Source of the DNA: Chitinophagales bacterium
GTDB lineage: Bacteria; Bacteroidota; Bacteroidia; Chitinophagales; UBA10324
NCBI GenBank assembly: GCA_025056305.1
Contig: JANWWJ010000018.1
Span: 1 to 64,000 of the forward strand
Length of the DNA stretch: 64,000 bases
Direction of reading: 5' to 3'
This document shows, piece after piece, positions 32,536 through 60,883 of this stretch (position 1 is its first letter; each line of letters opens with the position of its first letter). Made by a program: the position numbers and the translations under genes. The notes under the pieces were generated by a model. It saw only the letters and a program-made list of their open reading frames with translations. It was not told the DNA's origin and did not search any database.

Positions 32536-33298
32536 TAAAAAGCAGCGGATAAACCGGTGTAAAGCCAAAATACTTTCGTTGCTGCCAGGTAGAGTTCACA
32601 AACTGGCTGCTGTTAGAACCCAGTGTTACTGAGTTAAAGTCTACATCTCCACCGACATTCGTGTACTGAAAAGCAGAGCCGACTTCCAGTCCGGCTGCGA
32701 AGTTTCTGGTGAAGTAATACTGCACCCCTGCAAAGGCGCCAACACCTATGGAAGTGCCCCCCGGGATAACGGTAGTTTTGTACGTCTCTACACGGGCTGT
32801 ATCGTTAAGCTGTTCCGTCAATTCATATTCGGTAAACGTCCAATTGCCATAGACGGTGATTGGCAGTTCGAGGCCACCAAAAAACGATAAGTGCTCATCG
32901 AAAAAAGTCCATTGCACTCCAGGAGCAATCTTGTAAGATACTTGGTCGTATTGGCGACTGGTCAAGGCATGAACACCGGAAACGGTATCTACCGATTCGA
33001 CCTTATCCCGGAGCATGCGTTGTACGTAGATTGCTTTGAGGCGTAAAGCGACCCGAGGCTCAAAGAAAAATTTGAAGGCCAATCCTGCTGCCAGACTTTG
33101 GTCTTCAAAAGTTCCACCCACCAGCACTGCATCGCGCTCGGCATCTTCTACGATGGCATGTGTCTCGGGAAAGGTTAAGAAAGGAGTGATTTCAATCCGG
33201 TCGTATCCACCGTAGCGGGTAAAAGTAGGGCAGTTGGCTTGGCCCCAGGCGATAAATGGTAAAGTCACCCAGAAAAGAAAAAAAATCGCATGTTTCAT
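32519..33298 (-). CDS. Outer membrane beta-barrel protein
   Basis: A 259-residue exported protein (signal MKHAIFFLFWVTLPFIAWGQ) with alternating amphipathic strands and aromatic C-terminus LLFITLRF, typical of small outer-membrane barrels in Bacteroidota. Motifs such as SIGVGAFAGVQYYFTRNFAA are in keeping with an OmpA-barrel or outer membrane beta-barrel family. Its role is unknown. It overlaps the convergent Rieske gene by 17 nt at its 3' end. Confidence 0.85.
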   Translation of the reverse strand: MKHAIFFLFWVTLPFIAWGQANCPTFTRYGGYDRIEITPFLTFPETHAIVEDAERDAVLVGGTFEDQSLAAGLAFKFFFEPRVALRLKAIYVQRMLRDKVESVDTVSGVHALTSRQYDQVSYKIAPGVQWTFFDEHLSFFGGLELPITVYGNWTFTEYELTEQLNDTARVETYKTTVIPGGTSIGVGAFAGVQYYFTRNFAAGLEVGSAFQYTNVGGDVDFNSVTLGSNSSQFVNSTWQQRKYFGFTPVYPLLFITLRF

Positions 33299-33424
33299 GA
33301 GCCACTCAAGCAGGAAAAAACAAATGGTTTAATGGTTGTAAAGTTCTGTAAAACTTTTAAGATGCTTGCTTGTATTAACCAGGTGTTGCAAGGCTAAGTT
33401 TTATTGATTTTTCGTTTCTGTGGC

Positions 33425-33432
33425 TATGTTTG
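33425..33432 (+). promoter_or_regulatory. -7 box TATGTTTG for the PspC gene
   Basis: Exact TAnnTTTG match ending 12 nt before ATG 33445. Confidence 0.65.
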
Positions 33433-33444
33433 TGTACCAGAATT

Positions 33445-33627
33445 ATGGCCCGCAAACTCTATAAAGGATCCGAACGCAAACTGTTCGGAGTATGTAGCGG
33501 TTTAGGTGAATATTTCAATGTGGATCCAACCTTGGTACGAGCTGGTTTTGTAATAGCCTTTCTGCTTTTTGGAAGCGGCTTACTGTTATATCTGATTTTG
33601 GCCATATTGATGCCTGAAAAACCGTAA
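33445..33627 (+). CDS. PspC domain protein
   Basis: A 60-residue protein that is almost entirely a PspC domain (MARKLYKGSERKLFGVCSGL, NVDPTLVRAGF, one membrane helix around 36-56). PspC is linked to phage-shock envelope stress in Proteobacteria, while stand-alone copies are common in Bacteroidota. The upstream frame to 33430 begins inside the -7 box, so ATG 33445 is the start. The next gene begins 14 nt downstream. Confidence 0.9.
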   Translation: MARKLYKGSERKLFGVCSGLGEYFNVDPTLVRAGFVIAFLLFGSGLLLYLILAILMPEKP

Positions 33628-33641
33628 CCCTTATTTTAGTC

Positions 33642-34826
33642 ATGCGCATGAGGTGTTTGTCATTACGCCTGGTTACGCTGGTTTTTATGCTGTACGTATG
33701 CCTCTGTCATGGCCATGCGCAGCCGTGCAGCGATTTGTTCATCAGCGAATATATTGAAGGCACCAGCTTTAATAAAGCCATTGAAATCTACAATCCTACC
33801 ACCGGTACCCTTACCTTGGACGGCTATCGGCTTTATACGTTTAATAATGGCAGTCCCGTGGCATTGTTTACGCACGCTTTACATGGGCAGTTAGGGCCTG
33901 GACAAGTTTATGTCGTCTGCCATCCTCAAGCTGATTCTCTTGGAATTAAAATCAAGGCCGACACCATAAGTCTGGTGTGCAATTGGAACGGCAACGATGC
34001 GGTGGCGCTGGTAAACACCTACACCGGCGATACCATAGACGTCATTGGAGTAATTGGCGAAGACCCAGGCACATCCTGGCCCGTGGACGTAGGAAGCACA
34101 CAAAACAGCACCTTGGTTCGTAAGTCCTTTGTTCAGGCAGGAACGACAAACTGGGCTCAGGCACAAAACGAATATTGGGCATATGGGCAAAACAATTTTT
34201 CATATTTAGGTTTTCACATCATGGACCCTTGTCCCGTAGTGCCCCCCTCTATTCTTTTTCTTTCCGATACAGTCATCGTTTCTGAAAACGTCGGGATGGC
34301 GATGCTTACGGTTGGTATCGTTAATCCCGACAATGATCCTACCGGTTTTTCAATTCAAGCCAGCGGGGGCTCGGCAAGTGTGGGTGATGATTATAGTTTG
34401 CCTCCTTATCTGGCTTTTCCGGCTGGTTCTTCACAGCCCTTGCAGGTGGGCGTGACGATAGTGAATGATAACATCGTGGAAGCAGACGAAACAGCGGTTT
34501 TGGAGCTGGTTAGCCCCACCAATGGAGCCTCAGTGATCGGAGGATCTGTGCTGCTGATCATCCAAGACGACGATGCATTGAGTTCTGCGCCACCGCAACT
34601 CGGCGATTTTCAGGTTCAGTATTTAGACGGGACAGGTCAATATCGCATATCAACGCCGGAAGCTGGAAGGCTATGGGTTTTTGGTGTAGCTGGGAATTTG
34701 TTAATTCAGAAGGATTTACCTAAAGGCACACATACGATAAATCTTAATTCATTGACTGCCGGCAGTTATTTTTTGTTTTGGTCCGCCTCAGCCTGCTGTC
34801 AAGTCAGACACCTGGTTGTTTTTTAA
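33642..34826 (+). CDS. Secreted lamin-tail / Calx-beta protein
   Basis: A 394-residue exported protein (signal MRMRCLSLRLVTLVFMLYVC...). The first domain (about 28-185) is a lamin-tail domain (CSDLFISEYIEGTSFNKAIE), the second (about 200-310) a Calx-beta domain (SVGDDYSLPPYLAFPAGSSQ, VEADETAVLEL), and the end is a short, weak T9SS-like tail (GTHTINLNSLTAGSYFLFW, HLVVF). It lacks the YPNP start of a full sorting domain. A one-mismatch box TATTTTAG (33632-33639) lies two nt before the ATG, otherwise it is co-transcribed with the PspC gene. Confidence 0.82.
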   Translation: MRMRCLSLRLVTLVFMLYVCLCHGHAQPCSDLFISEYIEGTSFNKAIEIYNPTTGTLTLDGYRLYTFNNGSPVALFTHALHGQLGPGQVYVVCHPQADSLGIKIKADTISLVCNWNGNDAVALVNTYTGDTIDVIGVIGEDPGTSWPVDVGSTQNSTLVRKSFVQAGTTNWAQAQNEYWAYGQNNFSYLGFHIMDPCPVVPPSILFLSDTVIVSENVGMAMLTVGIVNPDNDPTGFSIQASGGSASVGDDYSLPPYLAFPAGSSQPLQVGVTIVNDNIVEADETAVLELVSPTNGASVIGGSVLLIIQDDDALSSAPPQLGDFQVQYLDGTGQYRISTPEAGRLWVFGVAGNLLIQKDLPKGTHTINLNSLTAGSYFLFWSASACCQVRHLVVF

Positions 34827-48946: not shown

Positions 48947-49903
48947 ATGCGGAATTTGGCCGGTCTTTCATTTCGTGAACTTGCCGTAAAGCATAGGGTA
49001 TGGTTATTGTCTTTTGCTCTGTGCTCGGTTTGCTTTAAAGCTCATGCCCAACTCATCGATACTTCTTCGCTTTCTGTGCGGCTGTCCGCTCTTGAAGACA
49101 GCTTACGCCCCCTTGCCGATTCCATGGTGTTGGCTGCGGATCAGCTTACGCGCCAAAATGCCTGTTATGCCTTCATTCCTATGCTGGTGCGCGCCCTCAA
49201 ACATGAAGGGTCGTTTCAGTATCCTTTTTCCAGATTAAGAACCGTATCAATTCTTTATGCCGAAGACAAAAGCTTCCGCATCTTCAGTTGGGCCGTTCGT
49301 TTCGATGATGAAACATACCGATACTACGGAGCTATTCAGTTAAACGAGCCACAACTCCGATTGTTTCCCCTTTACGATGCCCGATCGCTGATTCGGCGCT
49401 TAGCCGATACGGTTACCGACCATCGCCGCTGGCCCGGAGCGCTGTACTACAACTTGAAATCGTTTACGACAGCAGGGGGTAAAACATATCATTTGCTTTT
49501 CGGATGGGACGGACACACCGCCCAAAGCAACCGCAAATTCATAGAGGTATTGACTTTTTCACGGGGAAAACCGGTGTTCGGAGCATCCATATTCGATTTT
49601 GGGCCTCAGGACCCCCGAAATCGTATTAAACGTTTTTTCATAGAATATAAAGAAAATGCCTCTGTAACCCTCAATTATGATGCCGACCTGAACATGATTG
49701 TTTTTGACCATCTGCAACCCGAAACACCCCAGCTTAAAGGCGACTATCGCTATTATATTCCCGATGGTACATACGAGGGATTTCAATGGCAGGGAAACAA
49801 ACTGCGCTATCTCAGTGAAGTGTTTACCACCACCCAGGCCGAACCGCCTTTTGAACGTCCGATAGACTTCAGCAAAAGAAGGAAATGGTATGAACCCAAA
49901 TGA
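48947..49903 (+). CDS. Hypothetical exported protein
   Basis: A 318-residue protein I do not recognise. A signal peptide with a long n-region covers about 1-35 (hydrophobic core VWLLSFALCSVCF, cleavage after AHAQ). The rest has RFDDETYRYYGAIQLNEPQL and HLLFGWDGHTAQSNRKFIEV and ends with RPIDFSKRRKWYEPK. It lacks a T9SS tail. It starts six nt after the thiolase stop. Confidence 0.78.
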   Translation: MRNLAGLSFRELAVKHRVWLLSFALCSVCFKAHAQLIDTSSLSVRLSALEDSLRPLADSMVLAADQLTRQNACYAFIPMLVRALKHEGSFQYPFSRLRTVSILYAEDKSFRIFSWAVRFDDETYRYYGAIQLNEPQLRLFPLYDARSLIRRLADTVTDHRRWPGALYYNLKSFTTAGGKTYHLLFGWDGHTAQSNRKFIEVLTFSRGKPVFGASIFDFGPQDPRNRIKRFFIEYKENASVTLNYDADLNMIVFDHLQPETPQLKGDYRYYIPDGTYEGFQWQGNKLRYLSEVFTTTQAEPPFERPIDFSKRRKWYEPK

Positions 49904-49976
49904 TTCTGGATGCCTGAGTCTTATCCTGGCAACAGGGATTTACTGTTAGCTTGTTTTTCTTACACGTTTTTTCGAT

Positions 49977-51335
49977 ATGTCCCGGGAGTTATACGTTCGA
50001 AATTCACCCAAGCTCATCCGTGCATGGGCCATGTATGATTGGGCCAACTCGGTGTATTCGCTTACCATTGCTACAGCCATTTTTCCCATATACTATTCGG
50101 AAATCACTTCTGCCATCAATAACGGCATTGTGCACATCTTGGGCAGGCAATACACCAACGATGCCTTGTATTCATACACCGTTTCTGCTTCCTTTCTGGC
50201 TGTAGCCGTGCTGTCGCCTTTGCTGGCTCCGTTGGCCGATCAGCAACGAAACAAGCTGGCATTCCTTCAATTTTTCTGCTATTTGGGTGCGCTTAGTTGC
50301 GGCCTCCTCTTTTTTTTTCAAGGTAGTAACCTTGGTTGGGGCTTAGGGTGTTTTGGCTTGGCTTCTTTCGGTTTTGCCTCAAGTCTGGTTTACTACAATG
50401 CTTTCTTGAAAGACATTGCGGATGAGCGATTTCATGACCGCATCAGTGCCTGGGGTTACTCATTAGGTTACGCCGGTAGCGTAATCTTACTCATACTGAA
50501 TTTGCTTTTGATTCTGCGTCATGACTGGTTTGGCCTTGCGGATTCGAGCCAAGCCACGCGTATCAGCTTTATCGCAGTGGGCGTGTGGTGGGTATTGTTT
50601 GCACAGATTCCTTTCTATGCGTTGAGGCGTTTTCAACAACACAGCACACACCATCGACCCGGCACCAAACTCTTGACGGCAGGTTACCGGCGGCTTCGTC
50701 ATGTGTACAATGAAGTGAAAAAACACCCGGAATTAAGACGATACTTAATTGCTTTTTTCTTTTTCAATGCCGGCGTGCAGACGGTAATGTATTTAGCTTC
50801 ACTATACGGGGCCGAAATCATTTTTCGGGACGATCCTCAGGGCACGGTCAAGCTCATCGGTTGTGTCTTGGCCATCCAGTTGATTGCCATAGGCGGCGCC
50901 CAGTTGTTCTGGCGTCTATCTGCTCGCAAGGGCAATGCGCCGGCCCTTTTGATTGCCATCATCCTGTGGATGTGTATTTCGGCATTTGCCTATTTTATTA
51001 ATACCGAATATGAATTTTACGCGGTTGCCGTTTTGGTGGGTTTGGTCATGGGGGGAACACAGGCCTTGGCGCGCTCTACTTATGCCAAGCTGATCCCCAC
51101 GCGCAGCGATTCAGCTTCTTTCTTTAGTTTTTTTGATGCTACAGAAAAAATCGCCACCGTAGCCGGTACAGCTTTGTTTGGCCTGGTAGCCGACTTTAGC
51201 GGTGAGCTGCGCAATGTTTCTTGGATGCTGTTTTTATTGTTTGCATCAGGAGGTCTGCTTTTGTGGCCGCTGCAGCGGGTATCTGTGTTGCGCCCGCTTG
51301 GCAAAACAGCGCTGCAACAACCATCGATTACATGA
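49977..51335 (+). CDS. MFS transporter, UMF1 (Atg22-like) family
   Basis: A 452-residue membrane protein with about 11-12 helices. The N-terminal motif RAWAMYDWANSVYSLTIATA is characteristic of the UMF1 / Atg22-like major-facilitator group, as is GYSLGYAGSV near the middle. Substrates are unknown in bacteria; yeast Atg22 exports amino acids from the vacuole. No clear -7 box is visible in the 73-nt gap before it. Confidence 0.9.
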   Translation: MSRELYVRNSPKLIRAWAMYDWANSVYSLTIATAIFPIYYSEITSAINNGIVHILGRQYTNDALYSYTVSASFLAVAVLSPLLAPLADQQRNKLAFLQFFCYLGALSCGLLFFFQGSNLGWGLGCFGLASFGFASSLVYYNAFLKDIADERFHDRISAWGYSLGYAGSVILLILNLLLILRHDWFGLADSSQATRISFIAVGVWWVLFAQIPFYALRRFQQHSTHHRPGTKLLTAGYRRLRHVYNEVKKHPELRRYLIAFFFFNAGVQTVMYLASLYGAEIIFRDDPQGTVKLIGCVLAIQLIAIGGAQLFWRLSARKGNAPALLIAIILWMCISAFAYFINTEYEFYAVAVLVGLVMGGTQALARSTYAKLIPTRSDSASFFSFFDATEKIATVAGTALFGLVADFSGELRNVSWMLFLLFASGGLLLWPLQRVSVLRPLGKTALQQPSIT

Positions 51336-51357
51336 GGAGTGTTGACGACAGGGCTGT

Positions 51358-51365
51358 TAACTTCG
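51358..51365 (+). promoter_or_regulatory. Near-consensus -7 box TAACTTCG for the LutA-like gene
   Basis: One mismatch (C for T) to TAnnTTTG, ending 10 nt before ATG 51376. Confidence 0.35.
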
Positions 51366-51375
51366 TCGCCGGTAC

Positions 51376-52098
51376 ATGAAGCGCGTCCATTTATTTATTC
51401 CTTGCTTCATAGATCAGCTTTTTCCGCAGACGGCCTTTAATACCGTGAAGGTGTTGCGAAAAGCAGGATGTGAAGTGATCTACAACGCGGAACAAACCTG
51501 TTGCGGCCAACCTGCATTTAATGCTGGATTTTGGGAAGAAGCCCGGCCGGTATGCGAAAAATTTATTCACGACATGGAAGATGCCGACTACGTAGTGGGG
51601 CCCAGCGGCAGTTGTGTGGGTTTTGTGCGGAATTACTATCCTCTGTTGTTTCAAAACTCTGCCTTGCACAACGAATGCCGTCAGTTGGGGCGCCGCCTGT
51701 ATGAGCTGTCGGAGTTTCTGGTGGATGTGCTGCAGGTAACCGACTTTGGTGCGCGCCTTCACGGCGTTGCCACATATCACGATGCATGTGGAGCCTTGCG
51801 CGAATGTGGCATCCGCGATGCGCCCCGTCGGCTGCTATCCCGGGTTGAAGGGTTGGAGTTGCGCGAAATGCAGGACCGCGACAGTTGCTGTGGTTTCGGA
51901 GGAACTTTTGCCGTCAAATTCGATGAAATATCGGCAGCCATGGCGTACCAGAAAATGCAACAGGTTGCTCTTACCGAAGCCCAATACCTCATCTCGACCG
52001 ACTATTCCTGCCTCATGCACCTCGATAGTTATTTCAAAAAACAAGAGAGCAAAGTACAGGTGATGCACCTGGCCGATGTGTTGGCTTCCGGCTGGTAA
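51376..52098 (+). CDS. LutA/YkgE-family Fe-S protein
   Basis: A 240-residue protein with two cysteine-rich CCG domains (EQTCCGQPAFNAG near 36-48 and DSCCGFGGTFAVK near 174-186), with extra cysteines in GPSGSCVGF and YHDACGALRECG. The family includes LutA of L-lactate oxidation and subunits of heterodisulfide-reductase-like complexes. Partners LutB and LutC are not adjacent, so lactate oxidation is only one possibility. It converges on the DUF2490 gene, with three nt between the stops. Confidence 0.88.
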   Translation: MKRVHLFIPCFIDQLFPQTAFNTVKVLRKAGCEVIYNAEQTCCGQPAFNAGFWEEARPVCEKFIHDMEDADYVVGPSGSCVGFVRNYYPLLFQNSALHNECRQLGRRLYELSEFLVDVLQVTDFGARLHGVATYHDACGALRECGIRDAPRRLLSRVEGLELREMQDRDSCCGFGGTFAVKFDEISAAMAYQKMQQVALTEAQYLISTDYSCLMHLDSYFKKQESKVQVMHLADVLASGW

Positions 52099-52101
52099 CG
52101 C

Positions 52102-52773
52102 TTACAAGTCCAAGTCATAATTGATCAAAAGGCACAGCGCCTGAAAGCGCGGCGATTGGGTAAACTCGTATTCGTATTGCAGATGGGCACTGAGCTCATG
52201 CTGTTTGTTGATGCGAAAATCAGTGCCGGCCATGATGCGGATTTCATCGAACTGATCGCCTGTATGGTTAAAAATATGATAGAATAACTCTATATGAAGA
52301 TTGGGTCGCCATGTTTTGTTGAGGCGGTAGGTTATCCCTGGACGGGTTCGGATGTAACTTAAGTCAGGCCCTTTACGAAATTCATGCTGCAGGCGGATTC
52401 GTGCTGCCAGTTCTATTTTTCCTGGCCGCCAACGTACATTGGTTTCTTCATAAATGCGGTGGCTGATGCCCCAGGGTCGGATCAGCAATCGGTAGTGCAG
52501 GCCGGTGGTCAGGTGTTCAGTGGGATGATATCGGCCGCCCAAATCGGTGAACAGAACGCGAAGGGCCTGAGAATAGTCGCGCAGGCGCAGCTCTTCTTTC
52601 AGCCGCAGGCTCCAGCGCGAGTTGAGTTGTTTACCGATCGTAATGCTGGACCATGTTTGAAAGTCCGTTTGTGCACAACACAGAAGGGGGTGTAGCAAAA
52701 GCCAAACGATTGCCCACGATTGCCTCAGACGAATACGCACGCACCTAAGCTGAAGCTGGCAGCAGCGGGACAT
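52102..52773 (-). CDS. DUF2490 outer membrane protein
   Basis: A 223-residue exported protein (signal ends near LLCCAQ) matching the DUF2490 pattern: TDFQTWSSITIGKQLNSRWS, a run of alternating strands, and YEFTQSPRF. DUF2490 proteins are predicted outer-membrane barrels of unknown role. ATG 52773 is used (the codon at 52779 is TTG). It starts about 30 nt after the DUF4956 gene and is probably the last gene of the VTC operon. Confidence 0.83.
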   Translation of the reverse strand: MSRCCQLQLRCVRIRLRQSWAIVWLLLHPLLCCAQTDFQTWSSITIGKQLNSRWSLRLKEELRLRDYSQALRVLFTDLGGRYHPTEHLTTGLHYRLLIRPWGISHRIYEETNVRWRPGKIELAARIRLQHEFRKGPDLSYIRTRPGITYRLNKTWRPNLHIELFYHIFNHTGDQFDEIRIMAGTDFRINKQHELSAHLQYEYEFTQSPRFQALCLLINYDLDL

Positions 52774-52803
52774 AAACAATAGCGCGTCGGGAAGCAGCGC
52801 AAA

Positions 52804-53415
52804 TTATTCGTAATAGAAAATGCGAATACGAGCAATATCGCGCATAAAATCAATGCGCCCGACTTCCACACGGTGTACATTCAATCCCGTTCGTTGCCGC
52901 ACATCGGCCAGCAGTTTATCATAATTCTCTGGCCTGATGTTTTCAATTTTTTCGTATAAGATTATCTTGCTGGAGGCATGCCTGACCAACCATACCCGTT
53001 CCATGATGAACGTCATAACCACGACAACGATGTTGGCCAGCACCACCTCAAGAATGCTTACGTGGTCAGTGCTCAAGGCATTTATGACCGCAATGCTGAT
53101 CACCAGAAACAGATAGGTCATGTCCATGACCGCCACGTTCATGGTTCGGTAACGCAAAATGGAAAACACTGCAAAGAGCCCGAAGGCAACACCCAACTGG
53201 AGCTGGGTGTTTTTCAACATATAACATAAAACAAATATTATGATGTTGAATAGAAAATAGGTGAAAAAATAGTCTTTGTTTTTATGCACCGGATAGTAAA
53301 TCCAGCGGATGATGATGTACGCAATCAGCAGATTAAAGGAAAAGCGGAGGAGGAATGCTGCCAGCGCAGCTGAGTTGATTAAGGGAGGGAGCTCAAAGGT
53401 TTGCAGCAGGTTCAT
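52804..53415 (-). CDS. DUF4956 membrane protein
   Basis: A 203-residue integral membrane protein with about four helices (around 20-40, 50-70, 72-92, 105-150) and a basic, soluble C-terminal end with KIENIRPENYDKLLADVRQR. DUF4956 proteins are repeatedly found next to VTC domain proteins, as here, and are thought to form part of a membrane partner. ATG 53415 (MNLLQTFELPPL) is preferred to 53430. It overlaps the VTC gene by 23 nt. Confidence 0.86.
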   Translation of the reverse strand: MNLLQTFELPPLINSAALAAFLLRFSFNLLIAYIIIRWIYYPVHKNKDYFFTYFLFNIIIFVLCYMLKNTQLQLGVAFGLFAVFSILRYRTMNVAVMDMTYLFLVISIAVINALSTDHVSILEVVLANIVVVVMTFIMERVWLVRHASSKIILYEKIENIRPENYDKLLADVRQRTGLNVHRVEVGRIDFMRDIARIRIFYYE

Positions 53416-54199
53416 AAGGTAAAGAGCCATTTAGTAGCCTGCGAAAATAGAGCAGGCGAGGTTTGAAACGATTGTGTTTCACCCACGGATGTGTTAGCAC
53501 GATACCCATGCAGTACTTGCTGAACGTAACCGGGAATATGCGTTGATGGAGCATGAGGGCGCGAAAGGGGGAATGATATGCCGGCTGCTGTTGCTTTACT
53601 TCAGCAACCACAAGTTGCGGAACCGGCAAAATCCTGTCGCCCGCTTGGTAGCTGAGATCATAGTCCAAGGTAATGCGTTCAGTGTGGTCAATGCTTATGA
53701 GCGTAATTCGATTAAAGAAGGTATATAAAGAGGGCACCAAACGATCCGTTTCTTTCACTTCCTGATGTGCCAAGAAAGCTTTCTGCGAGTTCGTGAGCCA
53801 AGTAGTCAGCTGCTCTGCCGGCATACGCACTTTCGTAGTCAAGCCTTTGTTTAGCTTTTTCTTGATTTCTAAAAAGCAATGGCCGGTACTGACGTATTGT
53901 CGAAATCGGATTTTATAGCGGTTGGCCCGATCGTTATGATGCATTAGGTAACAGGTCAGTTCAGGAGTATCGAAGTATAAGTTATTGTAACGACGGCAAC
54001 CAGGGACCACTTCTTTCACTACACGGTAATGACGTCGCAGTTGTTCCAGAAAGGCAGGAAGCTGCTTTAAAAGAAACAGATATTTTTCATCGAACCGGTT
54101 GTGTAAGTGTAAAGTTCCTAATTCCTCCAAAGTGGAGGAAGCGAAACTTTGAATGTGGTTTTCAATCTCGCGCAAATGTGGGTTACTGATGATATTCAT
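53393..54199 (-). CDS. VTC domain protein (polyphosphate-polymerase-like)
   Basis: A 268-residue protein with the VTC (vacuolar transporter chaperone) catalytic-type tunnel fold: NRFDEKYLF, NNLYFDTPELTCY, RYKIRFRQYV, LEIKKKLNKGLTTKVR, ITLDYDLSY and VVAEVKQQQP. In yeast Vtc4 this fold makes polyphosphate from ATP. Whether this bacterial protein does so is inferred from shared basic and acidic positions (RFR, EIKKK, EVKQ). The frame extends to 54238, but ATG 54199 begins the family-like N-terminus. It overlaps the YD-repeat gene by 17 nt and the DUF4956 gene by 23 nt. Confidence 0.88.
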   Translation of the reverse strand: MNIISNPHLREIENHIQSFASSTLEELGTLHLHNRFDEKYLFLLKQLPAFLEQLRRHYRVVKEVVPGCRRYNNLYFDTPELTCYLMHHNDRANRYKIRFRQYVSTGHCFLEIKKKLNKGLTTKVRMPAEQLTTWLTNSQKAFLAHQEVKETDRLVPSLYTFFNRITLISIDHTERITLDYDLSYQAGDRILPVPQLVVAEVKQQQPAYHSPFRALMLHQRIFPVTFSKYCMGIVLTHPWVKHNRFKPRLLYFRRLLNGSLPYEPAANL

Positions 54200-54596
54200 A
54201 AACCATGCGCTTTTGCGATTTGATGCGACCGGCACCATCGGTCACCGTTCGACGGATACGATTGCCCGAAGCGTCGTACTCGTAGGCACGCACCTCGACG
54301 ACACGGCCATCGGCATCGAAGGTTGTTTCACGAATCTTGAGGCCGCGCGCATCATATTCGTAAGCGATGCGCTGTTTTAGCTTTCCTGATTCGTCGTATT
54401 CTGCCTCTTCGATGAGCCATCCCATGGGGTTGTAGGTGCGCTCCGCCAGCAACGTTTCATGACCTTTGGCATGCACCTGATATTCCAATATCCGCCGAAT
54501 AGATCGACGCGTCGTGTCCTGACCGGTCGCTTCATTGATTGCTGAATAGCCGGTCATCAAACACCATGTGGCCAGGGTCAAATACACAAGCTTCAT
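54183..54596 (-). CDS. Exported YD-repeat-like small protein
   Basis: A 137-residue exported protein (signal MKLVYLTLATWCLMTGYSA) with four or five short repeats of the type EYDARGLKIRETTFDADG and YEYDASGNRIRR, as in RHS/YD-repeat proteins. Without the RHS core, it is a small beta-rich protein. Its ATG overlaps the lipoprotein stop by four nt (ATGA) and its end overlaps the VTC gene. Confidence 0.82.
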   Translation of the reverse strand: MKLVYLTLATWCLMTGYSAINEATGQDTTRRSIRRILEYQVHAKGHETLLAERTYNPMGWLIEEAEYDESGKLKQRIAYEYDARGLKIRETTFDADGRVVEVRAYEYDASGNRIRRTVTDGAGRIKSQKRMVYEYHQ

Positions 54597-55000
54597 TTTC
54601 GGATCACCAAGTCAGGCAACTCAACCACCGAGTTGTTACGAACTATTTCAGCCTGCAACAGGACCGGCAACACGCCCGAAGCACAGGTGTCGCATTCGGA
54701 GTAGGCAAATACCGTGTAATGGCCTTTTTTAAGGTATCGGAATTCATAAGTGCCGTCATAACTGGTGCGCACATCTTCGCTGTAAAAAGCGTCGTTACCA
54801 TAAATGAGATATACCCGCTCTTCGGGGGCATAATATTCAGCTACCAGTTGACTGCCGGCATAATCTTGAACGCGCACCTTACCCCGAAGGCTTGAGGTTC
54901 CTCCTTCGCCGGGTTTGGGCTCGCAGGCCAGCCAAGATGCCCAAAGCAGGAACCCCAGCCCGCCTAAGAGCGGGCCGGAGGGACCACAAAGCGGACGCAT
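54593..55000 (-). CDS. Hypothetical lipoprotein in the VTC operon
   Basis: A 135-residue protein with an N-terminal leader (MRPLCGPSGPLLGGLGFLLW) and lipobox WLAC with cysteine at about 26. The body reads like a single carboxypeptidase-regulatory-like beta domain (SLRGKVRVQDYAGS, YDGTYEFRYLKKGHYTVFA). ATG 55000 is used because the codon at 55012 is TTG. It follows the lamin-tail gene by eight nt. Confidence 0.78.
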   Translation of the reverse strand: MRPLCGPSGPLLGGLGFLLWASWLACEPKPGEGGTSSLRGKVRVQDYAGSQLVAEYYAPEERVYLIYGNDAFYSEDVRTSYDGTYEFRYLKKGHYTVFAYSECDTCASGVLPVLLQAEIVRNNSVVELPDLVIRK

Positions 55001-55008
55001 GGCGCTTT

Positions 55009-56280
55009 TCAATGTATTAATTTTTTCGTTATTACTCCGGATGGATGTATGAGCGTACAGAGCAGTGGGGTGAGGGTCATAGGTCGCAGAGGCCGGCGGT
55101 GCTGGCCAGGGTTTAATGTTTCGGCATCCAGCAGGTGGCCCTCTACAGAGTACAGGCGCAACAGTGCAGGAGGCCCCATAGGAACGGTGATAAGCAACAT
55201 GCCTTCAACTACGGTGAGTTGCGCAAGGGGCTGAGGCTCGTCCGTAATGCCGGTTAAGCAATCGGGATCATAAGCATAGCCCGGCGAGCCACCTACGCAT
55301 CCCGCAAACCAGGCCAGCGGGTTGTTGACATTCCACGTAGTGTCGGAAAATTCCAAGGTATAACCACCGCCGTCGGGGGTTTTAGGCCAGTCGCCCGCAT
55401 CGTTGTACACCATAGAAAAGCGCAAGGTTCCGCTATAGTCAAACAACCGGATCAGTTCCCCGTCGTTACTTAAGTTGAAGTCAAAATTTCCGATGCGGTT
55501 GGTCACGTGCGGGTGCATTGCATCGAACAGGGTAGTGTCGCCTACAAGCACCAGCCGACTTTGAGGCGGTAGATGCAGGTTCGCAGGCAGATAAAAGGCA
55601 TTACCTTCTTTACTGTCTTTGAAACTCCACCCGCTCAGGTTGACATAGGAAGGACCTCGGTTATACAGTTCGACCCATTCACCGGCATTAAACAGCGGAT
55701 TAGGATTGTAATTTATTTCAGAAAAGATAATTTGATCGTAACACGGGGCAAAAGGCATGCCGGGCGAGCCAAACATGCAACCCACGAACCAGCTGTTTGG
55801 GTCATTGGGGTTTAGCGTTACGCTGCGCAGCTCAAGGGTGCGGCCGGTTCCATCAGCAGCCGGATGCCAAGGCAGACTATCGGCGTATTCAATGAAAACG
55901 ACCAGATTGCCCTGCGCATCGTACAGACGAATTTGATCCCCGTTGTTGCCCAGCCCGAAGTTGAAGCTGCCAAAAAAATTCGTTACAAACGGATGACGGC
56001 TTTTGAATTTTTGACTATCGTTGACCACAACGATCCGTGCACCCGCCGCCAGTTGAAGTGTTGGAGGAAAAACAAATTGGTTTTGGTTGTTGCCGTCACG
56101 AAACACCCAGTTTGCCAGGGAGACCGAGCTGGTGCCGTAGTTATACAACTCGAACCAGTCGCCAGAGGTAGTTGTGGAGTCGCTGTTAAAATTGATTTCC
56201 GCTACTGCAATCGTTTGGGCAGCAACAGCCGTACTCCAAAGGCTGAACAGAGCTATCCACAGGCCGTGGTTTTTGGTCAT
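55009..56280 (-). CDS. Exported double lamin-tail protein with T9SS-like C-terminus
   Basis: A 423-residue exported protein (signal MTKNHGLWIALFSLWSTAVA). Two lamin-tail (LTD) domains occupy about 25-180 and 185-345; key motifs are VAEINFNSDST, SGDWFELYNYGTSSV, and FSEINYNPNPLFNAGEWVEL. The C-terminal region (about 350-423) resembles a sorting domain (LRLYSVEGHLLDAETLNPGQ, ITKKLIH). In other bacteria lamin-tail domains accompany CotH kinases, VTC and DUF4956 proteins. The codon at 56298 is TTG; the -7 box at 56303-56310 makes ATG 56280 the start. It heads the operon. Confidence 0.86.
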   Translation of the reverse strand: MTKNHGLWIALFSLWSTAVAAQTIAVAEINFNSDSTTTSGDWFELYNYGTSSVSLANWVFRDGNNQNQFVFPPTLQLAAGARIVVVNDSQKFKSRHPFVTNFFGSFNFGLGNNGDQIRLYDAQGNLVVFIEYADSLPWHPAADGTGRTLELRSVTLNPNDPNSWFVGCMFGSPGMPFAPCYDQIIFSEINYNPNPLFNAGEWVELYNRGPSYVNLSGWSFKDSKEGNAFYLPANLHLPPQSRLVLVGDTTLFDAMHPHVTNRIGNFDFNLSNDGELIRLFDYSGTLRFSMVYNDAGDWPKTPDGGGYTLEFSDTTWNVNNPLAWFAGCVGGSPGYAYDPDCLTGITDEPQPLAQLTVVEGMLLITVPMGPPALLRLYSVEGHLLDAETLNPGQHRRPLRPMTLTPLLCTLIHPSGVITKKLIH

Positions 56281-56302: not shown

Positions 56303-56310
56303 CAAAAGTA
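56303..56310 (-). promoter_or_regulatory. -7 box TACTTTTG for the VTC/lamin-tail operon
   Basis: Exact TAnnTTTG match on the minus strand, 22 nt from ATG 56280. It should drive six genes ending at 52102. Confidence 0.65.
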
Positions 56311-56350: not shown

Positions 56351-56836
56351 ATGTCTCATGCAGGTTGGCTGTCCCATGCTTTAGAGGAAGGAGTAGTGGT
56401 CGCATTGCCCGGGGTGGGAACCCTCAGAGCCAAACGCCAACCTGCAACGATCCATCCAATCACCCATCAGTTTCATCCGCCGTACCTGAGTGTAGAAATA
56501 AGTGCTGACGTATCGGACGCCGAGGGTCTCTACGCGTGGTTGAGTAGGAGTTTTTTAATCGATTTGGAACAAGCCAGCAACTTATGCAAACATTTAGCAG
56601 AAGCGATCAAAAGTCAACTTTCTGCACAAGGATATGCAGATCTGGATGGCTGGGGCCAATTGAAACGAAATCCGGAAAATGAACTACAATTGGTCATGCA
56701 TCGAACCCTCGTGCCTCGCGATGCATATGGTTTTCCCAAATTTATCATGCCACCGGTTCTGCCGGTGCAGCATTCCTCGGCGTCGGCGTCAACGGTACGA
56801 TCTGCGGCGCGACGTCTTTTCTGGATTCGGTTGTGA
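56351..56836 (+). CDS. HU-CCDC81-like domain protein
   Basis: A 161-residue protein whose N-terminal half fits the prokaryotic HU-CCDC81 domain: EEGVVVALPGVGTLRAKRQP then IHPITHQFHPPYLSVEIS. The second half (FLIDLEQASNLCKHLAEAIK, KRNPENELQLVMHR) fits the second, HU-like unit. In Bacteroidota such proteins often carry a C-terminal SPOR domain, which is absent here. The role may be cell-envelope or nucleoid related. It lies between the VTC operon and the PorP operon. Confidence 0.82.
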   Translation: MSHAGWLSHALEEGVVVALPGVGTLRAKRQPATIHPITHQFHPPYLSVEISADVSDAEGLYAWLSRSFLIDLEQASNLCKHLAEAIKSQLSAQGYADLDGWGQLKRNPENELQLVMHRTLVPRDAYGFPKFIMPPVLPVQHSSASASTVRSAARRLFWIRL

Positions 56837-56842
56837 TTTTTC

Positions 56843-57844
56843 TTAAAAGCGGGGGTTGTACACACGGCCGGAAGAAATGCCGCGCACGGTCCCACGGTAG
56901 GTAAGCGTCAGCTCCAGTGCCCCAAGTCGACTGGGGGCGTCGGCTAACGTGCCGATGTTCAGATCATAACTAAGGCCGACGTGCAAATCATCCATGACGA
57001 GGGCAATAGCCGGAATCAGGGCATCGCCATAACGCAGGTACAAAGCTGCGGCTAAGCCATAATCGCCTGCGAGCAGGGTAGGTAACTCATAATCGAGTCG
57101 AAAACCAACAAGTAATTCTTGAGCGGGGCCTTGAAAGAAGGCGGCCACCGAAGGAGTAAAGTCAATTCCCTTCAACAAAGGATAGGCATACGTGACCGTG
57201 AACACCATTTTGGGATATACCTCCGATTTTGCATGGGAGGAAAATGCCACTCGCGGCTTGTTGAAATGCAGGCAGGCCAATCCCATTTGCAGGTGGGTGG
57301 TATCGCTCAACAAATTATAGACTAATCCTGCCGAAAGGTCGGCATAGCTGGTTTTTTCAAACCCCAGGACTTCCGATTGGGTTCCCTGGAGGAAAAATTC
57401 ATCGGTAGTGATTCGGGCAATATCTAAAGACACATTGGCACTGCCAACAGAAAAACCGCCACCGATGTAGTGCTGAAATGCATCACCAAAATTGTAATGA
57501 AACGATCCTGTGAGGGCGAAGACTGAAGTGGTAAAATTGACTGCTCCCGCTTTGTCGGCAAAACCCGAAAGCGCCAATCCGATGATCTGGTTTTTGTTTT
57601 TGCCGGCCGGGAGAGAAGTACTCAGATAGGTACCCAGTGTTCGGAACGGATCGGTAAGCTGGTGCCACTGACTTCGGTAAACCCCACTGAATTCATAGGT
57701 GCGTTTCTGAAATCCAGCAGCCGCCGGATTTAAGAACACAGGCATCCGTAGGGGTTGGGAAAGGTGAAAATCCTGGGCATAGGCTGGCAGGAAGATCGCC
57801 CACCAAAAGGGCTGCAGAAGAAAAATGCTCCACTTCCGGTTCAT
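56843..57844 (-). CDS. PorP/SprF family type IX secretion system protein
   Basis: A 333-residue outer-membrane barrel protein of the PorP/SprF family. The signature PVFLNPAAAGF, YRSQWHQL and NKNQIIGLALSGFADKAGA is typical. Members support export or anchoring of T9SS type B cargo such as SprB. The ATG overlaps the stop of the type B cargo gene by four nt (ATGA), so the pair is coupled. A longer frame to 57961 lies within that gene. Confidence 0.92.
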   Translation of the reverse strand: MNRKWSIFLLQPFWWAIFLPAYAQDFHLSQPLRMPVFLNPAAAGFQKRTYEFSGVYRSQWHQLTDPFRTLGTYLSTSLPAGKNKNQIIGLALSGFADKAGAVNFTTSVFALTGSFHYNFGDAFQHYIGGGFSVGSANVSLDIARITTDEFFLQGTQSEVLGFEKTSYADLSAGLVYNLLSDTTHLQMGLACLHFNKPRVAFSSHAKSEVYPKMVFTVTYAYPLLKGIDFTPSVAAFFQGPAQELLVGFRLDYELPTLLAGDYGLAAALYLRYGDALIPAIALVMDDLHVGLSYDLNIGTLADAPSRLGALELTLTYRGTVRGISSGRVYNPRF

Positions 57845-60714
57845 CGCAACAGCGTGACGTTTCCAAATCCTTGAATGAGTTCGCCGTTGAGGCAGCGAGC
57901 TTGCCATTCGTATAAATAGGTGCCTGCCGGCATCTCTTGACCATTGTAGCGGCCGTCCCATCCGCGATCCAAGCTATTGGTTTCAAAGATGCGTTTGCCC
58001 CAACGGTCGTAAATGCGGAAAAAGACCAAGTCCTCTACGCCGGTAGTGCGTACATACAAGACATCATTCAATCCGTTGCCGTTAGGGGTAAACACATTAG
58101 GAATAAATATAACTTGTTCAGCGCAGCCCACCCAAACGGTTAAGCTGTCTGTGGCCGTGCATCCTAAACTGTCGGTAACCGTCAACACATAGGTGGTCGT
58201 TTCCAAGAGGTTTACCGTGGGATTTAAGCATTGCGCACACGATAAGCCTGTCGAGGGTTCCCATTGATATGTTCCGGGGCTGGCCAATGCGACAATTTCG
58301 ACATCAACACCAGCTACGGTGTGAAGGTCGGGCCCTGCCCAAACTACCGGAGGGGGCTGAACGATGACGGTAGCGTACAGCGTATCGGCATAGCATGCAT
58401 CACGCACGATTACACTGTAGGTGGTGGTGTTTTGAGGTGCCGCCCACGTATTAGGGCTTTGCGGATTCACTAACGATTCAGAAGGCCACCACAGGTAATC
58501 AAGTCCTCCACCGGCCCAAAGGAAGGCTGAATCGCCCATGCAGATGGTGGTATCTCGACATACAAAAGCCTCCAATGGGGGCTGCACATGGAGCTGTAGC
58601 TGAGCCGTGTCCGTGCAGAAATAAGCATTAGTCACCGTAACCGTGTAAGTAGTTGAAGTGTAGATTACCGCTTGAGGGTTACTGATGAAAGCGTTGGTCA
58701 AGCCGGTTATGGGCTGCCACACGTAGTAGATGCCCCCACTGGCCTCAAGCTGTATGGGTATGCCGGCACACACGATCTCAGGTCCGCTGGCTTCAGCATC
58801 AGGCTTAGGTCTAACATATATGGTATGGGTGGCCATATTTTGACAACCTTTGAAGTCGGTAACTGTAACCGTGTAGGTTGTGGTCTGGTTAGGAGAGGCC
58901 AGGGTGCTGTTGTTCAGGGGTGCACTGAGCCCTGCCGTTGGTTGCCAACTGTAATAAAGACCCCCAACCGCATACATGGGTATGGTGTCGCCAGCACACA
59001 AAGAAGTATCGGCAAAAATGTAAACCTGCGGTAGCGGCAAAACAAACAACACGATGCTGTCTGTTGCACTACAGCCGTAGCTATCGGTTCCGGTTACAAA
59101 GTACCATGTGGTGTCGGATGGATAGGCATAGGGATTAGGGATAAATGGATTGCTTAATCCTGAAACCGGCCACCATTGATAGAAAAGAGCACCTGAGGCA
59201 AACAACTGAGCCGTATCGCCCTGGCACACACTCAGCGACGGCGGACCAGCGTTCACCGAAGGCTGCTGTACGGCTATGGAAATCTGCTCGCTGAACGTGC
59301 AGCCGTTTACCAAAACAGTTAGTACGTAAGAGGCACTCAGCAGCGGTGCAGCTATCGGATTGGCTATGACATCACTGCTCAATCCGGATGCCGGTACCCA
59401 ATGATATTCATCGGCCACTATACTGTTTAGCTGCAGCGATGATCCGGCACAAATAAAGGTATCGGGTGTCAGGATCACATCAGAAACACTTACATATGTG
59501 ATTGTTACAGAGTCAATATTCGAGCATCCATTACTATCTGTGCCGATCAGGACGAGGGTTGAGTTTTGGGTGCCGATAAATTGCGTCCATGCCTGGTCAG
59601 GATCCGAGACCAGATTTGGTGGTGTCCAGAAATATTGTTCGGCCCCGCTGGCCTGCAACCAAAGGGGTATTCCTGCACAGGCAATGGTGTCGTTGCCGGC
59701 AAAAACTAAAGGCTTGGGATTTACTGAAATTTTTATCGAATCAACGACGGTGCACAATCCATCACTGCCGTTTATGATATAGGTGGTAGTGCTGGTGGGG
59801 AAAGCCAGCGTAATTAGGCTATCTGTCTGAGCAAGCCCGTCGGCGGGCGACCAGGAAACTACGGTGACTCCGCTGACCGATAGCACAAGAGTATCACCCA
59901 GACATATTGCCGTGTCTTCGGCCACATTCATGATCGGCAGGTCAACTACTTCAATGGTAACGCTGTCGCTTGCCGAACATCCTAAACTGTCGGTGTAGGT
60001 GTATTTAATTGTAAACGTACCCACACCTGCCGATGGAGGAGAAAAAAGGCCGTCTGTTGACACAGCAGTTCCCCCAAAAGACCCTCCTTCTGGCAGCCCC
60101 CATAGCTGTACCTCTCCTGTATTGACACAGTAAACAGAACTCTGAGCTGTTACTGTGACCTCGGGCAGGGGATTTACGGTAACCAAAATACTGTCTTGTG
60201 CATTGCAACCATTGGTATCTGTGGCTGTAACGACATAAAGCGTGGTCGAAGTCACAAAGCACAAAGGCTGGGCAATATACGGGTTGCTAAGACCGGTTGC
60301 GGGTTGCCAAAGCAGGGTTGCGGAAGTTTGTGCATTCAGGGATATGGTGTCGCCTGAACACAGGCTGATATCGCTTCCCAGATCGAGCATCGGCGGGCAA
60401 TGAACATAGATCATTTGAGAGGCTGTATCCTGAGCACCGCTGCTGTCCGTGACAATGAGCGTCAGCTCCATAAGGCCGCATGCGCTGATCACGTAGCTGA
60501 GGTGAAAAGCGGTTTCAGAAATCAGCTCTTGGTTAAGAAACCAAGATACCCCCAACGGCTCCTGACCTACCGAAACATTTTGCGCGGTTATCAATGCGGG
60601 TGCGCAGAAAACGGAATCGTTTACCGTAAAACCCGCCATCGGTTGTGCCCAACCCGCGGGCAACAACGCAAACCCCTGAAAAAAGACCATCAAGGTCGCT
60701 CGCAGGTCAGCCAT
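57841..60714 (-). CDS. T9SS type B cargo with repeated beta modules (gliding-motility-associated C-terminal domain)
   Basis: A 957-residue exported protein (signal MADLRATLMVFFQGFALLPA). About ten modules of ~80 residues follow, with CAGDTIxL, YxWxPxxGLxNPxIPNP and TTTYxVTVTDxxGC. The end is a type B sorting domain (VFIPNVFTPNGNGLNDVLYV, FRIYDRWGKRIFE, GWDGRYNGQEMPAGTYLY). ATG 60714 follows a one-mismatch box (TAAATTTC, minus strand, 60726-60733). It is followed by PorP/SprF in the same operon. Confidence 0.93.
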   Translation of the reverse strand: MADLRATLMVFFQGFALLPAGWAQPMAGFTVNDSVFCAPALITAQNVSVGQEPLGVSWFLNQELISETAFHLSYVISACGLMELTLIVTDSSGAQDTASQMIYVHCPPMLDLGSDISLCSGDTISLNAQTSATLLWQPATGLSNPYIAQPLCFVTSTTLYVVTATDTNGCNAQDSILVTVNPLPEVTVTAQSSVYCVNTGEVQLWGLPEGGSFGGTAVSTDGLFSPPSAGVGTFTIKYTYTDSLGCSASDSVTIEVVDLPIMNVAEDTAICLGDTLVLSVSGVTVVSWSPADGLAQTDSLITLAFPTSTTTYIINGSDGLCTVVDSIKISVNPKPLVFAGNDTIACAGIPLWLQASGAEQYFWTPPNLVSDPDQAWTQFIGTQNSTLVLIGTDSNGCSNIDSVTITYVSVSDVILTPDTFICAGSSLQLNSIVADEYHWVPASGLSSDVIANPIAAPLLSASYVLTVLVNGCTFSEQISIAVQQPSVNAGPPSLSVCQGDTAQLFASGALFYQWWPVSGLSNPFIPNPYAYPSDTTWYFVTGTDSYGCSATDSIVLFVLPLPQVYIFADTSLCAGDTIPMYAVGGLYYSWQPTAGLSAPLNNSTLASPNQTTTYTVTVTDFKGCQNMATHTIYVRPKPDAEASGPEIVCAGIPIQLEASGGIYYVWQPITGLTNAFISNPQAVIYTSTTYTVTVTNAYFCTDTAQLQLHVQPPLEAFVCRDTTICMGDSAFLWAGGGLDYLWWPSESLVNPQSPNTWAAPQNTTTYSVIVRDACYADTLYATVIVQPPPVVWAGPDLHTVAGVDVEIVALASPGTYQWEPSTGLSCAQCLNPTVNLLETTTYVLTVTDSLGCTATDSLTVWVGCAEQVIFIPNVFTPNGNGLNDVLYVRTTGVEDLVFFRIYDRWGKRIFETNSLDRGWDGRYNGQEMPAGTYLYEWQARCLNGELIQGFGNVTLLR

Positions 60715-60883
60715 AGTAGGTTGCGGAAATTTACGACGACCATTCGACAGCGCGCTGCAAGCCGACGAACACATGGGCTCTTGCGGATGATTCGTCACGG
60801 AAATATGCTAATATTTCTCTATATCAAATTCCTGAAGCTGGTTTTGCACGCCATTGTCTGAAAGGGGTTTTAGTCTTGTCCAC

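Follow-up and report, generated by a model that had tools for sequence, protein, structure and literature searches.

A conserved six-gene operon of a Chitinophagales bacterium joins a Vtc4-type tunnel domain to DUF4956 and predicted envelope proteins

The DNA analysed here (the window) is a stretch of 64,000 nucleotides (nt), positions 1 to 64,000 of contig JANWWJ010000018.1 in assembly GCA_025056305.1, from a Chitinophagales bacterium whose genome comprises 2.41 Mb in 44 contigs and whose nearest named relative is the metagenome-assembled genome Chitinophagales bacterium SKYG5 (84% identity over DUF4956). The window carries an operon of six co-directional open reading frames (ORFs) on the minus strand, from 52102 to 56280 or 56298, in the order LTD (lamin-tail domain), LIPO (lipoprotein), YD (YD repeat), VTC, DUF4956 and DUF2490, with neighbours overlapping or separated by less than 31 nt. 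A prediction made earlier from the sequence alone (the original prediction) had described six near-touching genes at 52102-56280, including double LTD, YD-repeat, VTC, DUF4956 and DUF2490 members, behind an exact -7 box at 56303-56310; the arrangement was borne out by ORF coordinates and a reading of the junctions, the family assignments by Pfam, and the box by a sequence match. The features are:

56303-56310, minus strand: putative -7 promoter box of Bacteroidota type, TACTTTTG with upstream GTTAAATTC
55009-56280, minus strand: exported protein with two lamin-tail domains (LTD; Pfam E 4.5e-35, two stretches)
54593-55012, minus strand: lipoprotein (LIPO) with one prealbumin/CarboxypepD_reg-like domain (Cys30 and GxGG in 26 homologues)
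54183-54596, minus strand: exported YD/RHS-repeat protein (YD; RHS_repeat E 3.3e-08)
53393-54199, minus strand: VTC, Vtc4-type triphosphate-tunnel phosphate polymerase domain (Pfam 9.7e-30)
52804-53430, minus strand: DUF4956, inner-membrane protein with five membrane-type helices and a C-terminal ferredoxin/ACT-like domain (Pfam 5.2e-53)
52102-52779, minus strand: DUF2490, predicted outer-membrane beta-barrel with signal peptide (Pfam 2.1e-24)

The LIPO ORF runs from TTG 55012, with ATG 55000 as the likelier start; with the one or the other start codon, the LTD/LIPO junction is -4 or +8 nt. The following junctions are -4 nt (LIPO/YD), about -17 nt (YD/VTC), about -20 to -38 nt (VTC/DUF4956) and about +24 to +30 nt (DUF4956/DUF2490). 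The TACTTTTG box lies exactly at 56310-56303, 22 nt ahead of the ATG at 56280, and both it and the upstream GTTAAATTC are conserved in one sister genome of the same genus (L031), which suggests a promoter role. The number of TAnnTTTG matches was dropped as promoter evidence, being at chance level in the window (29 observed against 39 expected).

The VTC protein has 268 residues and consists of the VTC domain alone, with no transmembrane segment and no SPX domain. A profile search with the family returned yeast Vtc4 structures at the top (3g3q, E 1.4e-12). The AlphaFold model (mean predicted local confidence, pLDDT, 91.7) has as its best structural match yeast Vtc4 with AppNHp-Mn (3g3r; Z 17.9, root-mean-square deviation 3.0 A over 213 residues; Foldseek E 3.4e-14), ahead of the hydrolases and cyclases that share its superfamily. 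Vtc4 numbering was transferred to the family through the alignment of this structural match, and 52 relatives were compared. The equivalents of K200, R264, R266, K281, K294, R361, E426, K428 and K458 are invariant, and that of R373 is kept in 51 of the 52 and present in the window protein. The yeast VTC complex is inactivated by mutation of R264, R266 and E426 (PMC9911596), and K458 has been termed catalytic, its counterpart being dispensable in the hydrolase AtTTM3 (PMC4641920). Along the exit path, the equivalents of R196 and K428 are basic and invariant, while the T198 position holds Asp or Glu. The original prediction had turned on the VTC residues that bind ATP; in the structure-based alignment the positions for ATP or phosphate and for metal are conserved, a result that does not refute it. 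Model and alignment make the window VTC a true tunnel domain of Vtc4 type, and polymerase activity is predicted for it.

DUF4956 is the constant partner of this domain. In a sample of 395 genomes of the phylum, it was found within 5 kb of all 64 tabulated strong VTC hits, immediately adjacent in 61, and the two ORFs usually overlap across loci (median gap -4 to -8 nt); among 14 control genomes, the same three carry both. Its model (pLDDT 85.7) shows five membrane-type helices followed by a ferredoxin/ACT-like C-terminal domain; comparison of that domain with the PDB was set aside as uninformative, since numerous ferredoxin-like folds match it at Z 4-6. Polyphosphate synthesis in yeast is coupled to translocation through a basic channel (PMC9911596), and with this precedent the obligate pairing and the gene overlap argue for DUF4956 as the translocation partner of VTC, a role that stays conjectural. 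Apparent VTC-DUF4956 fusions in two loci (L150, L162) were rejected, since the long ORFs arise from reading on upstream in a different frame and VTC has an ORF of its own there, and a 778-residue "VTC" ORF (L081) probably has an over-extended start. Pairs also occur on contigs labelled Planctomycetota, Euryarchaeota and Aggregatilineales (L166, L183, L201), possibly mis-binned Bacteroidota or transfers. Several DUF4956 genes stand without VTC: one (L109, 4616-8801) has myo-inositol-1-phosphate synthase ahead of it and a Porin_O_P-like (phosphate-selective porin) gene and CotH behind it; two from different genomes of one family (L111, L112) lie between a preceding DUF6580 and a following HlyD-type gene; and one (L105) lies near a purple-acid-phosphatase-like gene.

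Conserved order of the six families was borne out in the genus, in most of the family and partly in the phylum. VTC is present in 38 of 61 relatives. The genus and most of the family retain LTD-LIPO-(YD)-VTC-DUF4956-DUF2490, while across the taxonomic order the arrangement is LIPO-VTC-DUF4956-DUF2490 or part of it. The 74 named VTC loci, which were fetched by similarity to the window DUF4956 and so are not an independent sample, contain DUF4956 in 74, DUF2490 in 42, LIPO in 34, CotH in 16, YD in 12 and LTD in 11. YD is the optional, variable part of the operon, beside VTC in those 12 and in 6 of 69 sampled loci.

The original prediction had the operon lacking CotH. This stands for the operon itself and fails for the genome and for its relatives. 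Exactly one CotH is encoded in the window genome, on another contig and fused to LTD (L204, G000:C31, 4639-7401; 920 residues; LTD, CHB_HEX, CotH and InlB-like domains), and in relatives CotH or CotH+LTD occupies the slot that LTD holds here (neighbourhood labels for CotH and LTD were assigned with domain-limited profiles and then checked with Pfam). In two loci (L127, L128) a CotH kinase-like protein comes first, in the order CotH(517)-LIPO-YD-VTC-DUF4956-DUF2490, and the L127 copy has a sorting tail of the type IX secretion system (T9SS). Four further loci (L138, L189, L054, L099) have CotH+LTD-LIPO-VTC-DUF4956-DUF2490, with a T9SS tail above the family cut-off on three of the four CotH+LTD proteins, and four others of CotH type (L045, L063, L068, L079) have DUF4956-CotH-VTC. 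At genome level, CotH was found in 38/38 VTC-positive and 5/23 VTC-negative relatives (Fisher 2.6e-11), and in 55/57 VTC-positive and 80/338 VTC-negative genomes of the phylum sample (Fisher 2.8e-27), both values uncorrected for shared ancestry. VTC, DUF4956 and CotH are all present in the control genomes of Corynebacterium glutamicum and Methanosarcina acetivorans; CotH was not detected in two VTC-carrying genomes (G292, G359) or in the control Bacteroides ihuae, which has VTC and DUF4956. Because the slot holds CotH in relatives, the genome has a CotH elsewhere and VTC and CotH co-occur, it is more apt to regard the window operon as a variant whose CotH works in trans or can be dispensed with than to call the system CotH-less.

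A T9SS-like tail had also been claimed for the window LTD protein; none was found by TIGR04183, by Pfam or among the 128 tails detected in the genome, and T9SS export of this protein was dropped as unsupported, with no Por_Secre_tail at its C terminus. For a genome of 2.4 Mb, 128 sorting-tail matches look like a very large cargo set. The CotH+LTD gene abuts a 697-residue gene (L204, 2546-4639) whose end resembles a gliding-motility-type C-terminal domain, and the pair is also kept in the sister genome (L206). Further, unlinked LTD proteins are encoded at about 33050-34250 on the plus strand of the window (402 residues in frame, exported, one LTD match at 33717-34052) and on contig C20 (about 880-897 residues).

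LIPO of the window has no Pfam family of its own, and CarboxypepD_reg is matched by 22 of its 26 homologues. In these 26, Cys30 is invariant after a hydrophobic segment and is followed by GxGG, on which basis the protein is read as a lipoprotein; the original call thus holds at family level, with an atypical, non-canonical lipobox (WLAC) in the window protein. DUF2490 lies beside VTC in 36 of the 69 sampled loci and goes together with LIPO. An HlyD-type gene adjoins VTC-DUF4956 in 14 of the 69 (identity confirmed by Pfam in four checked loci, one of which, L048, also has TolC), and both LIPO and DUF2490 are absent from all 14 (0/14). In HlyD/TolC-type modules, membrane-fusion and outer-membrane proteins connect an exporter of the inner membrane with the exterior; whereas they adjoin VTC-DUF4956 in other lineages, the window operon has neither HlyD nor TolC, and LIPO and DUF2490 stand in their place. 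This mutual exclusion suggests two alternative outward paths from the inner membrane, with a contribution from lineage effects.

Upstream of the operon, 56351-60798 carries genes for HU-CCDC81-like, PorP/SprF-like and 985-residue gliding-type repeat proteins, also found in the sister genome. Downstream, 48947-52098 on the plus strand carries CCG-domain (LdhH/LldE-like) and Atg22-like major facilitator superfamily genes, which adjoin the operon on the opposite strand in L031, L036, L037 and L039 too.

The original prediction had put the system forward as a candidate undescribed one, and its core is not new. PMC7112168 describes a trio of CotH, polyphosphate polymerase and DUF4956, to which DUF4832 can be added, as accessory genes next to pel in streptococci, clostridia and bifidobacteria, and in Streptococcus intermedius it corresponds to SIR_1594-1592, a three-gene synteny stated not to be found outside the Pel locus (PMC12345266). 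The three families that adjoin one another there (a VTC-type polymerase, a DUF4956-type protein and a secreted CotH) recur in the Bacteroidota loci, but the window operon has LTD in the CotH slot, with CotH elsewhere in the genome, and adds a lipoprotein, a YD protein and a DUF2490 barrel, parts suited to a two-membrane envelope. SIR_1592, the DUF4956-type protein, has been described as MgtC-like, with four transmembrane segments and an ACT domain (PMC12345266), to which the window DUF4956 model is close; MgtC is absent from the 25 Pfam families listed for 65 DUF4956 homologues. Linkage of the window operon to Pel was rejected, as PelG was not found in its genome; nor was PelG above the family cut-off in any VTC-positive genome of the phylum sample, and the arrangement in Bacteroidota is therefore Pel-independent. 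Contrary to the statement in PMC12345266, the Bacteroidota loci are cases of CotH-VTC-DUF4956 outside Pel loci.

Compared with the eukaryotic VTC complex (Vtc1/Vtc3/Vtc4; PMC9911596), the operon shares the Vtc4-type tunnel domain, its conserved active site, a dedicated membrane partner and, presumably, the logic of coupling synthesis to translocation. It differs in that polymerase and membrane parts are on separate genes, without SPX or fused transmembrane helices, that DUF4956 is not detectably related to Vtc transmembrane domains, and that exit would here cross one or two bacterial membranes. The adjacency of DUF4956 and DUF2490 recurs in Bacteroides thetaiotaomicron, where BT3498-BT3499 appear together in an iron-stimulon table without an assigned function, and where PMC10434189, the one paper returned for BT3497/BT3498, does not name a VTC neighbour. 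The open-access search found no literature that pairs DUF4956 with VTC by name.

The operon is real, conserved and coherent, and is a variant of a partly described module. The envelope-spanning phosphate-polymer pathway of the original prediction stays the best reading of it, once the claims that it is CotH-less and that its core is undescribed are removed. We consider it about an even proposition that the operon encodes a split bacterial VTC-like synthesis-and-export apparatus feeding phosphate polymer to CotH/LTD surface proteins. In such an apparatus, cytoplasmic VTC, docked on DUF4956 at the inner membrane, would polymerise phosphate from ATP by Vtc4 chemistry, and DUF4956 would thread the chain across that membrane. 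In yeast, the transmembrane helices of Vtc1, Vtc3 and Vtc4 do the threading. The prealbumin-like lipoprotein and the DUF2490 barrel would form an outer-membrane module that carries the polymer to the surface or anchors it there, equivalent in place to the HlyD/TolC-type module of other lineages. At the surface, the polymer may serve the secreted LTD and CotH(+LTD) proteins: CotH kinases could take phosphate from it, or the proteins could bind it as a surface polymer; delivery to the LTD protein itself is conjecture. In its most specific form, in which VTC-DUF4956 is a polyphosphate synthase-translocase exporting energy-rich chains through the envelope as the phosphate source for secreted CotH-family kinases and lamin-tail proteins through two interchangeable exit modules (LIPO+DUF2490 or HlyD+TolC), the proposal is tentative and on balance doubtful.

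Several observations weigh against a synthesis-and-export apparatus. The tunnel folds of the VTC superfamily include hydrolases too; the T198 position carries Asp or Glu, where hydrolases have Glu, and the R253 position carries His. The membrane part of DUF4956, the putative channel, had no structural relative in the PDB comparison, and 29 of 93 DUF4956 hits in the phylum sample have no VTC nearby, so DUF4956 has another partner or role too. The VTC-CotH statistics ignore phylogeny. The open-access literature searched yielded no report of activity for any bacterial VTC-DUF4956 pair. PPK1 is present in the window genome, so polyphosphate synthesis need not require VTC; absence of PPK1 was accordingly dropped as an argument for VTC, whose product would be a separately localised pool and not the only polyphosphate of the cell.

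It is possible, though unlikely, that the operon supplies a cofactor only, a short VTC-DUF4956 product (pyro- or tripolyphosphate) from which CotH kinases outside the cytoplasm would take the phosphate that they place on LTD or other surface proteins, with no build-up of surface polymer. CotH uses ATP in the spore-coat system, the window operon has no CotH of its own and CotH goes undetected in some VTC genomes (the two of the phylum sample and B. ihuae named above), all of which tell against this supply; it draws support from the genome-level link between VTC and CotH, from the shared operon slot of CotH or CotH+LTD in relatives, and from PMC7821199, which has Bacillus CotH polyphosphorylating the spore-coat protein CotB.

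We regard as rather improbable a regulatory or accessory module, in which VTC-DUF4956 tunes the production or anchoring of an exopolysaccharide and CotH/LTD are matrix proteins. Deletion of SIR_1592 or of the cotH-like SIR_1594 in S. intermedius alters Pel amount and aggregation, aggregation is not lost when the VTC-type SIR_1593 is deleted (PMC12345266), and the ACT-like C-terminal domain of DUF4956 could bind a ligand; against such a module stand the PelG results given above and the absence of polysaccharide genes within the window operon.

That VTC is instead a tunnel-fold hydrolase or phosphate sensor in a phosphate- or metal-homeostasis unit, for example one degrading imported polyphosphate, is very unlikely: many tunnel enzymes are triphosphatases (PMC4641920) and solo DUF4956 genes lie near purple-acid-phosphatase-like (L105) and Porin_O_P-like (L109) genes, but the equivalents of catalytic K458 and basic R196 and K428 do not vary, the fold nearest to the model is that of Vtc4, and import explains neither why DUF4956 is an obligate partner nor why HlyD/TolC occurs as an alternative.

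VTC proteins occur widely in bacteria under the annotation of polyphosphate polymerase, and the open-access literature searched held none from bacteria with a demonstrated activity or export route. The operon links a Vtc4-type enzyme with a single membrane partner that is obligate, with two envelope-crossing modules that replace each other and with a secreted kinase family, and it extends the CotH-VTC-DUF4956 association beyond Pel biofilm loci. Three questions thereby become directly testable: whether bacteria have a coupled polyphosphate synthase-exporter, which function DUF4956 has, and from what source CotH kinases outside the cytoplasm draw their phosphate. A synthesis-and-export apparatus of the kind proposed, if real, would give bacteria an equivalent of the complex with which yeast makes and exports polyphosphate; in its most specific form, with the chains as phosphate source for secreted kinases, it would explain how kinases outside the cytoplasm, where ATP is absent, are supplied.

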